A DNA stretch of 64,000 bases, taken from Thiospirochaeta perfilievii (lineage in GTDB: Bacteria > Spirochaetota > Spirochaetia > DSM-2461). Position 1 is the stretch's first letter; every line of letters starts with the position of its first letter. Below, piece by piece: positions 28,584 to 33,797 of the stretch. The notes beneath the pieces are model-generated. The model made no database searches and was not told the DNA's origin. It saw only the letters and a list, made by a program, of their open reading frames with translations. Where the stretch lies: NCBI RefSeq assembly GCF_008329945.1, contig NZ_CP035807.1, positions 124,001 to 188,000 of the forward strand, given 5' to 3'. The translations under genes were made by a program, and so were the position numbers.

Positions 28584-30563
28584 CTATACCTTTAGGTTGA
28601 ATGTTATACACCTTAATTTAAAAAATATTTCTAACTCTTTTAAGTAATATTTAGTTAAAATATGGCTGTTATTATAATTTGCTGCTAGAGAGAAATATCC
28701 ATAAGCCTTAGGGTAGTTTTTCAAGGCTATACTTTTAACACCATTTTCAAATGCTTCTTTAAATAGAGGATCTAAAATATAGGTCTTTGGAATAACCTGG
28801 TATAGAGTTATTGGCTCATCCTCCCCCTTTAATATAATATCTCCTAGGGTTAAAATATCTTCCTTTTTTAATGATGATAGTGCATATACAGATTTTGTAA
28901 TTAGTATCTCTATCCCCATCTTCGAATTAAAACTATCCATATAACCAAGGACTCTTGTAACTTCCGATACAGCAGTTGCCTGTACCCTATTTTTAGATCC
29001 AATAGTACCTAAAACAACTCTACCAAAGTGTAGAGACATTCCAATTCTTATACCTGTTGTAGAAGCTACCTTATCACTTATTTTTAGGGTTGCCTTTACT
29101 GCATAGTCTGGGGGACATTCAAATATGGCTCTTACTCCATCACCACCATAGGACTCAATATATCCACCAAAATTTACGACTTCATTTCCAACAATATCAT
29201 AAAAATCATTAATCATTGTAAAGTTCTCTTTTGGTGTTAAGCTCTCTGATAGTTTAGTAAAATCCCTAATATCTATATAAACCATAGTTACAGGTTCTAC
29301 AATAAATTCCCCGGCATCTCTATCCTCTAATTTCATATTTCCCAGTTTTTTTAGAATTGTTATTGGTACAAATTTTGAGAATAGAACCCTTGTATTTGCA
29401 TTAATTCTCTCCTTATCTTTAATAAAATTTGTTGACTCTACTCTTTTTTGACCAATCATAATAAACATTGTAATAACAACAATAAAAACAAACTGGGCAC
29501 TATAATAATCAAAAGCTATAAATAGTGTATTTGAAACTATGTCAAAAACTATGGATAAAAAGAACAAAACTATAGAGGTTAGAGCCAGTAGAGAGTATTT
29601 TCTCCTTTTTTTTACTGTTCTAACTAATTTTGAAATAATGTAAGTACCAGCAATAAGGACCTCTATATGCATAATTGTTAAAATATTAAACTTATTAAAT
29701 ATATTTAAAGGAAGAAATGCTAAAAATGATGAAGCAAGGGATATTATTGTAAAAAACAGAGAGAAACGGGTCTTAAACTCCAATGGGTAGAGGGATGTAA
29801 AAAAAAGAAGTATAAAAGTCAATGCCCATAACTCACTAGCCTTGTTAAATTGAAACTCCATAGCCCATGTTACCCATGGGATAATATCCTGTATTGTTGT
29901 ATTTTTTATTAAGTATGATCTTATTCCATAGGATAAGGTAAAGAGTGAAAAATATAGGTTATATTTGTTTTTTATATTAATTAAAAACATTAATATAAAT
30001 AGGACAGAACAGATTAAAAGTAGTCCTGTTGTAAAATAGTCCTTACTTTGACTTTTAATATAGATATCAATTACATCCTCGCTTTTTCCATATAACATCC
30101 ACTTAAATAACCATTTATTTTTAAAATGAAAGTTTGAGAACTCTATAACAATATGAGCCTTATCACTTTTGGGGACAAAGTTCATTAGAGCTCTTTTAAT
30201 AACAGGAGTACTATCTTTCATACTATCTGAGACTTCCCCAAACTGCCCAACTAAAACATCATCTATCCAGATCCTAGATGAGGAGAAAAACCCGGAGGTG
30301 TAAAGGGTGTAATTTTCCCCTACAGTAACATCTATTTCAGTTGAAACTGTTCCGTATAAATATTCGTAGTCCTGTAGTTTATCTATGCTACTTCCAGATA
30401 GATAAAGATTATAATCGGGTTTATTATTCTCAATTTTTTCAGTTTTTATAAACTTATTTTTATATAAGTCCCACTTACCATCTATCTCTATTAAATTATG
30501 GTTTAAATTACAAGAGGTTAAAAAAAGAGTTATAATTGGTAATAAGATTATATTTTTAATCAC
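28584..30563 (-). CDS. 7TMR-DISM class III cyclase, metal-binding (C1-like) half
   Basis: The 659-residue protein has a lipoprotein-like signal (LFLTSC), an extracytoplasmic sugar-binding-like 7TMR-DISMED region to about residue 170, seven membrane helices (about 175-372), and a cyclase homology domain (about 420-590). Both metal-binding aspartates are present: Asp431 in YIDIRDF and Asp475 in GGDGVR. The adenine-specifying Lys is Ser471, the adenine-specifying Asp is Gln528, and the transition-state Asn and Arg are Arg537 and Tyr541. By itself it should not form a standard active site. Its gene overlaps the partner cyclase gene by 4 bases. It may make cAMP or cGMP only as part of a heterodimer. 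Confidence 0.88.
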   Translation of the reverse strand: MIKNIILLPIITLFLTSCNLNHNLIEIDGKWDLYKNKFIKTEKIENNKPDYNLYLSGSSIDKLQDYEYLYGTVSTEIDVTVGENYTLYTSGFFSSSRIWIDDVLVGQFGEVSDSMKDSTPVIKRALMNFVPKSDKAHIVIEFSNFHFKNKWLFKWMLYGKSEDVIDIYIKSQSKDYFTTGLLLICSVLFILMFLINIKNKYNLYFSLFTLSYGIRSYLIKNTTIQDIIPWVTWAMEFQFNKASELWALTFILLFFTSLYPLEFKTRFSLFFTIISLASSFLAFLPLNIFNKFNILTIMHIEVLIAGTYIISKLVRTVKKRRKYSLLALTSIVLFFLSIVFDIVSNTLFIAFDYYSAQFVFIVVITMFIMIGQKRVESTNFIKDKERINANTRVLFSKFVPITILKKLGNMKLEDRDAGEFIVEPVTMVYIDIRDFTKLSESLTPKENFTMINDFYDIVGNEVVNFGGYIESYGGDGVRAIFECPPDYAVKATLKISDKVASTTGIRIGMSLHFGRVVLGTIGSKNRVQATAVSEVTRVLGYMDSFNSKMGIEILITKSVYALSSLKKEDILTLGDIILKGEDEPITLYQVIPKTYILDPLFKEAFENGVKSIALKNYPKAYGYFSLAANYNNSHILTKYYLKELEIFFKLRCITFNLKV

Positions 30564-32506
30564 TTATCTAAGTCCTCTAAACATTTATTTTTTTTAATTA
30601 GATTTAAAAAATATTTTGATGGTTTATGATTATGTTCAATCTTTAAGATATTCATTAAAACATGTTCTATTTTCTCTAATGGACTATCCTCAAGTTTTTT
30701 CATTGTTATACTAAAAAGACGATCACTCTCTTGGATACTTTTTGTATAAAGAGAGTATATACCAATAAAATTTTGTTTACCCTTTAGCTTAACTCTCCCC
30801 ATAAAGAGGGTACTGTAAAGTGATGGATTTTCCAATTTATTATAAACATCCTCACTTATTAAAATATCCCTTGATATTTTCTCGGTAAATGAGTTAATTC
30901 TACTAGCTGTATTAACAACCTTTGATATTACAGTTGCATCAACCCTTTTTTCATCCCCAACTAAACCTATTGTTTGTGAACCAATATGGATTCCTGTTCT
31001 CATCTTAAGTGGCTTTCCAAAGGAGTTTGAACTATTAAATTTCTCTAATCTCTTGTTTATCTCAATTACAGCTTTTATTGCATCCTCAGGTCTACCAGGG
31101 AAAAGAGCCATTACCGTCTCATCAATAAATTTATCAATAAAGCCACCGTTATCACTAATAATAGGGGCTATAAGTGAGTAACACCTATTTAGAAGACCTA
31201 TAGTCTCCTCCGCCTTATATAGTTTTAACTCTTTTTTGAAACCTATAATACTTGTAAATATTATAGTCATATCCTTATCTACACCATCACCCCGTTTAAT
31301 TGAAGAGATATTACCCATACCAACAGTTTTAACAAAGGCGTTAGGAACAAATTTACTTAAATACCTAATTACCTTAATATTTTCTAGGGTTAGATTTTCA
31401 ATTTTTTTAATTTTTCTAATCTCTCTTTGTGAAACAATATAGGACATAGATAAAATAAATACGATCATAGAACTTGGTAATATCTGAAAATCGAAGTAGT
31501 TAAAAAATAGATTAAAGGAGTCAAATACCGCTGCTATAAATAGGGTTATAATACTTACTAATATTCTTAAAGAGTCCTCTTTTTTTTGTTTAATACAGAA
31601 ACTTAGGTTAATAATTATAAATAGACTACTTAGCCCTATAAAAGAGTAAAACAGATAGAGGAAGGATATATAAATTTTAGGTGGAGTAAAAATTAATATT
31701 AAGGGGAAAAAAGTACTAATTCCTATCATAACCAGTGAGATTCTAGGGAGTACACTCTTTTTATAATAATGAAAAATAAAAAGCAGAGTTAACAATGGTA
31801 TAATATATATGGAAATATACTCTAATTTATTTAACCAGAAGTATGATAAGTTGGGAATAAAATTAAAAATAATTTTATCATTTGTAACTACACCTCTAAT
31901 TGCTAGAAACAGGCATATAAGGGCAAAAAAAAGTGTTGATTTATCGTTTCTAAAATTTAAAAAGAGAACTAAAAAGAATAAAAACATAATTATAGATGCT
32001 CCAGAAATTAGAGTATCTCGTAGTATATTTTTCTCGTATCTTTTAAGGACTTTATTAAAATCTCCTAAATACGGGGTACTTCTAAAACCTCCGAATTTTT
32101 CCGTGTTATTTGTTATATAAAACTCTAAAAGATTGTCCCCTTTTTTAAGAGTAAGTGGAATATACATGGATCTATTTTGTCTATCTGATGCTATTAATTC
32201 AGAGTTTAAATAGAAAGTGAATTGTGTGTTTATTTGGGATAGAGAAAATAAAAGATTACCCACCCCTGAGCTTTTTACAACTAAAGAGTATTTAACTGTT
32301 CCTAAATTCCCCCTCCAGCTACCTGGAACCTGGGAAAACTCGGTTAAGCCATTTTTATAACTAACCTTCCAATCCCCAGCAAGGGATATAGGATCATTAC
32401 CTTTAAAACTGTAATATCTAAGATCAATCTCTCCCTTATCCACATTTGAGAAGAGTGGAATCGAAATTGAGATAAATATTAGAATAAGAAGAGATTTATA
32501 CCCCAT
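30560..32506 (-). CDS. 7TMR-DISM class III cyclase, catalytic-residue (C2-like) half
   Basis: The 648-residue protein has a signal peptide, an extracytoplasmic 7TMR-DISMED domain (about residues 21-155), seven membrane helices (about 163-360) and a cyclase homology domain (about 410-580). It retains the base-specifying Lys459 (DKF) and Asp523 (RVDAT), and the transition-state Asn532 and Arg536 (VNTASR). Both metal aspartates are lost: Ser419 replaces the first (FTSIIGF) and Glu463 the second (FIDETV). This is the exact complement of the neighbouring cyclase. It overlaps that gene by 4 bases and the upstream phosphatase by one, so it should be made together with both. Confidence 0.88.
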   Translation of the reverse strand: MGYKSLLILIFISISIPLFSNVDKGEIDLRYYSFKGNDPISLAGDWKVSYKNGLTEFSQVPGSWRGNLGTVKYSLVVKSSGVGNLLFSLSQINTQFTFYLNSELIASDRQNRSMYIPLTLKKGDNLLEFYITNNTEKFGGFRSTPYLGDFNKVLKRYEKNILRDTLISGASIIMFLFFLVLFLNFRNDKSTLFFALICLFLAIRGVVTNDKIIFNFIPNLSYFWLNKLEYISIYIIPLLTLLFIFHYYKKSVLPRISLVMIGISTFFPLILIFTPPKIYISFLYLFYSFIGLSSLFIIINLSFCIKQKKEDSLRILVSIITLFIAAVFDSFNLFFNYFDFQILPSSMIVFILSMSYIVSQREIRKIKKIENLTLENIKVIRYLSKFVPNAFVKTVGMGNISSIKRGDGVDKDMTIIFTSIIGFKKELKLYKAEETIGLLNRCYSLIAPIISDNGGFIDKFIDETVMALFPGRPEDAIKAVIEINKRLEKFNSSNSFGKPLKMRTGIHIGSQTIGLVGDEKRVDATVISKVVNTASRINSFTEKISRDILISEDVYNKLENPSLYSTLFMGRVKLKGKQNFIGIYSLYTKSIQESDRLFSITMKKLEDSPLEKIEHVLMNILKIEHNHKPSKYFLNLIKKNKCLEDLDK

Positions 32507-33081
32507 TAGCAGCTAATTTTATTAATATCTAGAGCATGGGAGTTAATAAAATCTATCTCCCAATTTTGTGAGTATTTTAATCCTGTTAAAGAGCAGTTCT
32601 TTATTGGGGTATTTTCCCAATTTATTTTATTAGAGCTTAAGTGACTTAATAGTGAAATAATAACACCTCCATGGGTAAAAACAAGGTAACGACCACTCTC
32701 AAGTTTACTACAATCCCCTAAAAAGTCTAACAATTTATTTGTAAAGTCTTTAATGGTTTCTACACCATAATCCTTTGTTGACTCCCTCATTGTTTTTACA
32801 AAAGAAGCCTCTTGTCCTGCAAGTTCACCAAAATTTCGCTCCATTATCCTCTCTTCTAACTCTATAGGAATATTTAGATTGTTATTAACTATTTGGGCTG
32901 TTTTTAGTGCTCTATCAAGGGGTGAAGAGATGATCTTTTTAAACTCTTTATCAATTTTTGAGGATAGAAGAATTGCTTCTTCCACACCCCTATCATTAAG
33001 AGGAATATCTATTATACCCTGTAGTTTACCCTCTAGATTCCAGTTAGTCTGTCCATGTCTAATAAAAACAAGTTCTACCAC
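32506..33081 (-). CDS. Histidine phosphatase family protein (phosphoglycerate mutase-like)
   Basis: The 191-residue protein has the branch-1 histidine phosphatase start VFIRHGQTNWNLEGKLQG (phosphohistidine in RHG), IISSPLDRALKTAQIV, the catalytic ERNFGELAGQE segment and the second histidine motif VFTHGGVIISLL. The family includes cofactor-dependent phosphoglycerate mutases, alpha-ribazole phosphatase and broad phosphatases; the substrate is not evident. It overlaps the PHP gene by 7 bases and the cyclase gene by one, so the four genes 33797 to 28584 form one operon. Confidence 0.9.
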   Translation of the reverse strand: MVELVFIRHGQTNWNLEGKLQGIIDIPLNDRGVEEAILLSSKIDKEFKKIISSPLDRALKTAQIVNNNLNIPIELEERIMERNFGELAGQEASFVKTMRESTKDYGVETIKDFTNKLLDFLGDCSKLESGRYLVFTHGGVIISLLSHLSSNKINWENTPIKNCSLTGLKYSQNWEIDFINSHALDINKISC

Positions 33082-33797
33082 TTTATATCCCTTGAAATAT
33101 AATTTAGAAATTCATCTGAATCTTGATTAATTACAAGTTCCTTGGGAAATCCAATCTCATCTATAAGTTTTATAGCCATATCAAATCGGCCTACACTGGA
33201 AGTGTGATGGGAGTCGCTACCTAGAACAATTTTAGCACCTTCATTTCCACAGATCTCTAAAATTTTAATTAATCCCTCCCTACTGTTTTCCCTAAAGGTA
33301 GTTGGTAGAAGAGAACTGTTATTTAGCTCTAGAAGTGTTTTACTCTCTTTTGCTTTTTTTACAACATTGACATAATCAAACCTATACCTACTATCTTCAG
33401 GGTGGCCAATAATATCTACATTTTTATTTTCCATTAAATTAATAAGGGCTTCTGTAGTTTTAATAGGTGTGGAGGGCTCTATACAAGGGCCGTGGAAACT
33501 AGCTACAACTAACTCCATTTCTGACAAAATATCAGTTGGAATATCTAAACGACCAGTATAATCAATAATATTGGCCTCTACCCCACGGAGGATTCTAACA
33601 CCTGAAATTAACTTTGGAATTACACGTAAATTATGAAAATGATAAATATGGGCTCCACCAGGCATAGCCGGACCATGATCTGTTGTTGCCATAATTTTAA
33701 GTCCCTTTTGGGAAGCGGCCAATGCCATCTCATTTAATGATGAGTAGGCATGACCAGATGCTACTGTATGTGTGTGTGTATCTAATTCTAAATTCAT
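33075..33797 (-). CDS. PHP-domain phosphatase/hydrolase (YcdX-like)
   Basis: The 240-residue protein has the PHP metal-site motifs LDTHTHTVASGHAYSS near the N-terminus, ATTDHGPAMPGG, RGVEANIIDYTGRLD, ASFHGPC, DIIGHPED and GSDSHHTSSVG. These metal ligands and the overall length match YcdX-type phosphatases. It leads the operon containing the phosphatase and two cyclase genes. A role in dephosphorylating a small metabolite is likely, but the substrate is unknown. Confidence 0.88.
   Translation of the reverse strand: MNLELDTHTHTVASGHAYSSLNEMALAASQKGLKIMATTDHGPAMPGGAHIYHFHNLRVIPKLISGVRILRGVEANIIDYTGRLDIPTDILSEMELVVASFHGPCIEPSTPIKTTEALINLMENKNVDIIGHPEDSRYRFDYVNVVKKAKESKTLLELNNSSLLPTTFRENSREGLIKILEICGNEGAKIVLGSDSHHTSSVGRFDMAIKLIDEIGFPKELVINQDSDEFLNYISRDIKW

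Follow-up and report, generated by a model that had tools for sequence, protein, structure and literature searches.

Two overlapping 7TMR-DISM cyclase genes of Thiospirochaeta perfilievii divide the class III catalytic residues between them: a probable C1/C2-type heterodimer with relatives across the spirochaetes

Two overlapping genes of the spirochaete Thiospirochaeta perfilievii very probably encode an obligate heterodimeric class III cyclase, in which two membrane receptors of the 7TMR-DISM type would share one catalytic site. The proposal is based on the partition of catalytic residues between the two proteins, the linkage of their genes, the recurrence of the pair in other genomes, natural gene fusions, the match of each protein to a eukaryotic half and the class III fold predicted for one of them. 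The reciprocal split extends well beyond the window (the whole 64,000-nucleotide stretch of DNA analysed here), across spirochaetes, and the two halves are sometimes fused. Bacterial class III cyclases have been reviewed as monomeric proteins that homodimerise, and the duplication and fusion behind pseudoheterodimers have been placed in an early eukaryote (PMC9552081). Searches of the non-subscription literature brought up no earlier description of a class III cyclase heterodimer in bacteria.

Gene pair and catalytic residues

The pair is encoded on the minus strand, with the gene for P0002 upstream and that for P0001 downstream. The features of the locus are as follows, the families of the two genes upstream of the pair having been assigned by eye from their motifs.

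30560..32506, minus strand: C2-like gene, P0002, 648 aa; signal peptide and ectodomain, then 7TMR-DISM and a class III cyclase domain that lacks the metal aspartates
28584..30563, minus strand: C1-like gene, P0001, 659 aa; ectodomain and 7TMR-DISM, then a class III cyclase domain that has the metal aspartates and lacks Lys/Asn/Arg
N-terminus of P0001: lipobox-like signal peptide (LTSC)
30560..30563, minus strand: 4-nt overlap GTGA, containing the GTG start of P0001 and the TGA stop of P0002
31424..32014, minus strand: 7TMR-DISM_7TM of P0002, residues 165-361, E=3.7e-16
29463..30035, minus strand: 7TMR-DISM_7TM of P0001, residues 177-367, E=1.8e-10
30767..31273, minus strand: cyclase domain of P0002, residues 412-580; K459, T525, N532 and R536 kept, S419/E463 at the metal positions
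28806..29297, minus strand: cyclase domain of P0001, residues 423-586; D431 and D475 kept, S471/R537/Y541 replacing Lys/Asn/Arg
32506..33081, minus strand: gene with RHGQTNWN motif, histidine-phosphatase-like; upstream, abuts P0002
33075..33797, minus strand: gene with DTHTHT motif, PHP-like; overlaps the phosphatase-like gene

The first-pass annotation of this DNA had described two adjacent cyclase genes that overlap by four bases and carry 7TMR-DISM regions, and the open reading frames, the shared stop and start codons and a Pfam search bear this out: PF07695 (7TMR-DISM_7TM) and PF00211 both score above their curated cut-offs in each protein. PF07695 lies N-terminal to the cyclase domain in both, the arrangement that defines a 7TMR-DISM receptor, and is preceded by a signal sequence and an ectodomain of about 130 residues, with limits set by eye. 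The phosphatase-like gene is likely part of the same transcript. Lipobox-like N-termini occur in the C1-like proteins of this genus (LTSC, window 30510-30563; LFSC, L086; FLSC, L015) and appear to be missing from their C2-like partners; the C1-like protein is possibly a lipoprotein subunit in this genus.

In class III dimers, the aspartates are supplied by one subunit and the remaining catalytic residues by the other (PMC4886424). Alignment with structurally solved cyclases and with relatives agrees with the earlier reading that P0001 retains D431 and D475, the two metal aspartates, with S471, R537 and Y541 standing instead of Lys, Asn and Arg, and that in P0002 K459, N532 and R536 are retained while S419 and E463 occupy the metal positions. 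One half has the aspartates without Asn/Arg and the other the reverse, which is what distinguishes a C1/C2-type pair, and neither chain alone has all the residues of a homodimeric member (two Asp, Lys, Asp/Thr, Asn, Arg), a set that is whole only across P0001 and P0002. Glu463 of P0002, together with the adjoining Asp462, could in principle keep contact with a metal.

The claim of complementary losses stands for the metal aspartates, Lys, Asn and Arg; it fails for the second base residue. The first-pass annotation had assigned base specificity to Asp523 of P0002 and Gln528 of P0001. These lie nine residues before the transition-state Asn, in a column that is variable (D, E, Q, N, S) among intact single cyclases, several of which also have Gln there, and the alignment rules them out as the base site. 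The true base position is seven residues before this Asn and is occupied by Thr in both proteins (T525 in P0002, T530 in P0001), so that P0001 has lost the base-binding Lys and kept the second base residue. Read from the aligned residues, the C1/C2-type arrangement survives this correction.

Recurrence across spirochaetes

The first-pass annotation had proposed looking for the same residue split in related genomes. We searched 393 genomes of the phylum together with named genomes and tallied residues in 153 non-redundant cyclase domains; genomes and matches were picked by similarity, and the figures are counts rather than frequencies. Both metal aspartates and both Asn and Arg are present in 94 of the 153. 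Another 28 lack one or both metal aspartates and keep Asn and Arg (C2-like), and 25, all members of pairs, keep both aspartates and lack Asn and/or Arg (C1-like). The C2-like domains have T/N/R in 28 of 28 and the Lys in 27, and the C1-like pair members have D/D in 25 of 25. Every one of the 28 metal-less domains has a metal-keeping, C1-like domain encoded directly downstream, and the reverse order was found in none (24 pairs are whole within one locus, the paralogue in the window's own genome is the 25th, and three have a partner cut by the end of the locus or contig). Among the 153 domains, metal-less domains with Asn/Arg were found solely beside Asn/Arg-less ones, and with 94 of the domains intact this is more than chance would give.

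Pairs are present in Treponema bryantii B25 and XBD1002 (L185, L186), in Treponema metagenome-assembled genomes (L178-L184), in other genera of Treponema's family (L113, L158-L165, L167, L171) and, in the window's own family, in G013 (L088). The congener G002 has a syntenic pair with reciprocal loss, flanked by PHP-like and phosphatase-like genes and by yebC-ruvC-ruvA-ruvB-queA (names by eye); both genes upstream of the window pair (32506..33081 and 33075..33797) are syntenic there. The window's genome itself holds a paralogous pair at 3.626-3.630 Mb with the same reciprocal split, a 4 nt overlap and the C2-like gene first, which is 39% (C1-like) and 47% (C2-like) identical to the window pair.

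Lone homologues with the same losses had been named in advance as evidence against a heterodimer. None was found among the metal-less domains that keep Asn/Arg, all 28 of which are linked to a partner, and two gene fusions join the halves; the sole exception is one lone C1-like gene (L103), on a different branch of the tree. This gene (L103 5563-7608, G022) encodes a 7TMR-DISM cyclase with both metal aspartates in which the base, Asn and Arg positions are occupied by Gly/Lys/Thr, has no cyclase neighbour, and is either a lone C1-like gene or a decaying one.

The losses were also located relative to reference columns, defined by conservation of 85% or more across 75 intact 7TMR cyclases. The C2-like set has lost D-I-R-x-F-T...E, which makes up the first metal loop, and, from the second loop, G-D; the C1-like set has lost the T, V, D, V, N and R columns and, within the KGK loop, GK. 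Both sets retain glycines and fold positions, and the predicted structure of P0002 has the class III fold (compared with CyaB, OaPAC and CyaC, Z is 21-25 and rmsd about 2 A). In the alignment, the pattern is one of reciprocal loss of half-sites and not of general decay.

These observations bear on the possibility that both proteins are catalytically dead and dock on an intact cyclase or other signalling proteins to regulate them, their adjacency reflecting only tandem duplication. Such receptors would have company, since the family includes pseudo-cyclases without metal residues and Asn/Arg (L172/L116) and the lone C1-like L103, and the genome has other cyclases, among them the intact 7TMR-DISM cyclase L024. 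Drift, however, would not keep a complete half-site in every member, as is seen for D/D in 25 of 25 C1-like and T/N/R in 28 of 28 C2-like domains, and this argues against dead receptors; nor do metal-less members that keep Asn/Arg ever occur without a C1-like neighbour, and the halves are fused in two genomes. We consider this explanation highly improbable and favour an active heterodimer.

Several loci depart from the common pattern. In G032 and G057 (L116 3752-7234 and L172 2778-6260), a 1161-aa open reading frame combines 7TMR-DISM with a cyclase-like domain from which the metal residues, both of them, and Asn/Arg have been lost; some 650 residues that match no Pfam family come first. At L167 714-2132 and L246 2726-3646 (G324 and G386, Treponemataceae), the C1-like frame is apparently open in its C-terminal part only, downstream of an intact C2-like gene; a frameshift, an assembly error or a pair being lost are the alternatives.

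Fused forms and the origins of the pairs

The C2-like and C1-like proteins are joined in one open reading frame in two genomes of Treponema's family, as L156 (G338, 1314 aa) and as L157, which is identical to L177 (1272 aa; Treponema MAG G301 = JAAYNH010000029.1). Each fused frame has two 7TMR-DISM and two cyclase domains, and the corresponding pair is unfused in L162, from the genus of G338. The fusions are the strongest genomic evidence that the C1-like and C2-like products act together. An AlphaFold model of a fused protein, built from C1 rows only, reached pLDDT 64 and pTM 0.47, values too low to judge domain packing; alignments of the fused protein do not place both halves correctly, since each half is a homologue of the other.

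In a tree built on the 7TM plus cyclase regions, the pairs fall into separate groups. In one group from Treponema, C1 and C2 form sister clades (support 100/99 and 99/96 in two trees), and another group of pairs is nested with intact single genes in the 7TM plus cyclase tree. A single clade was rejected on these regions both for all C2-like (p=1.5e-4) and for all C1-like proteins (p=2e-5), but a test restricted to the cyclase domain did not reject a single origin (p=0.098 and 0.21). This conflict between trees could stem from separate origins, from gene conversion in the sensor halves or from convergent active sites. The intact single 7TMR-DISM cyclases of spirochaetes have the same architecture as the split pairs and are their closest relatives, differing in that they carry the full catalytic set and stand alone; as judged from sequence, they are likely the ancestors of the split pairs. 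With somewhat less than even confidence, we suggest that homodimeric receptor cyclases became obligate C1/C2 heterodimers more than once through tandem duplication and reciprocal loss, that Treponema relatives fused the halves, independently repeating the path of animal adenylyl cyclases, and that the two sensors form a two-input gate at a single site. Split pairs and fused chains occur side by side with single relatives that are intact, and together these could represent living intermediates of a transition of the homodimer-to-pseudoheterodimer kind.

Relation to known cyclases

Profiles built from the two sets favour the eukaryotic halves that correspond to them. With the C1-like profile, mammalian VC1 reaches 44.7 bits and IIC2 is absent from the 60 matches listed, and soluble guanylyl cyclase alpha is preferred over beta (43 vs 19 bits). 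The C2-like profile scores IIC2 at 33.4 vs 30.2 bits for VC1 and prefers the beta over the alpha subunit (43 vs 19 bits). Within single-chain AC5, AC9 and sAC, the best-scoring stretch is the corresponding half for each profile; AC8 is an exception for the C2-like profile. Together with the recurrence in relatives and the natural C2-C1 fusions, these matches support the C1/C2-type assignment that had been made from the window alone.

As in the mammalian membrane adenylyl cyclases AC1-9, which are C1/C2 pseudoheterodimers, the catalytic residues are split between two membrane-anchored halves and there would be two membrane domains per active enzyme, with L156 and L157 providing a one-chain fusion. 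Unlike them, the window has 7TMR-DISM receptors with ectodomains where mammals have 6TM bundles, and two genes, C2-like then C1-like, where mammals have C1 then C2. The hallmark of that family, TM1-C1-TM2-C2 with 6TM bundles in one polypeptide, is not found here: by its residues, the window pair would work like a mammalian adenylyl cyclase and is not a member of the family. Soluble guanylyl cyclase forms one composite site from two gene products, the C1-like protein resembling alpha and the C2-like protein beta, but it is soluble, haem/NO-regulated, GTP-specific and eukaryotic. The homodimeric bacterial class III enzymes (Rv1625c, Pseudomonas CyaB, CyaC, OaPAC) share the domain and fold, and CyaB and OaPAC also the Lys/Thr base residues; in contrast to the window proteins, they carry all catalytic residues in each chain and homodimerise with two sites.

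Proposed mechanism and product

We propose that P0001 provides the two metal-binding aspartates and that P0002 provides Lys459/Thr525 for base binding, Asn532/Arg536 for the transition state and also the KGK loop, so that a complete site would form in the mixed dimer only. The mixed dimer would have exactly one site, because the second interface lacks both residue sets. Each subunit would connect its own periplasmic ectodomain and 7TMR-DISM bundle to the cyclase domain through a helical linker, and with this separate equipment the pair could read two sensors through one site. The fixed gene order and the overlap would favour equal synthesis and assembly.

Alternatively, the subunits might exchange partners and form sites not only with each other but also with the paralogous pair or an intact 7TMR-DISM cyclase, which would make the window pair one combination among several. 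Either half could be complemented by any intact subunit, and the genome offers a further complete pair as well as an intact paralogue; a dedicated partner is favoured instead by the gene overlap, by the constant order of the two genes and by the fusions seen in relatives, and we regard exchange as unlikely. Under the preferred reading of a dedicated heterodimer, the Lys/Thr base residues suggest that the product would be cAMP, made from ATP. Mammalian adenylyl cyclases have Lys/Asp at the base site, a difference that would fit another product, such as cGMP, or use of another nucleotide. Set against this, the adenylyl cyclases CyaB and OaPAC have Lys/Thr in the same alignment, whereas the guanylyl cyclase Cya2 has Glu/Gly at the base positions, which makes a product other than cAMP very unlikely. 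With 13 matches to cNMP-binding domains, the genome could respond to cAMP. An orthogonal two-gene cyclase would offer a way to test how one site reads two membrane sensors, and the idea is testable since pairs occur in cultured Treponema bryantii.

Other cyclases near and beside the pairs

In two Treponema loci, the split pair has as its neighbour a complete cyclase that differs in type, with Asp at the base position (L164 6438-8501 and L183 10850-13921). A separate cyclase family (L025, L111 8827-10620, L122 3-794), found in several spirochaete families and marked by the motifs GSIIGDALLAV and RMTNTVIGDNVNSSSRLE, has Ser in place of the base-binding Lys and keeps the other catalytic residues; its substrate may differ.
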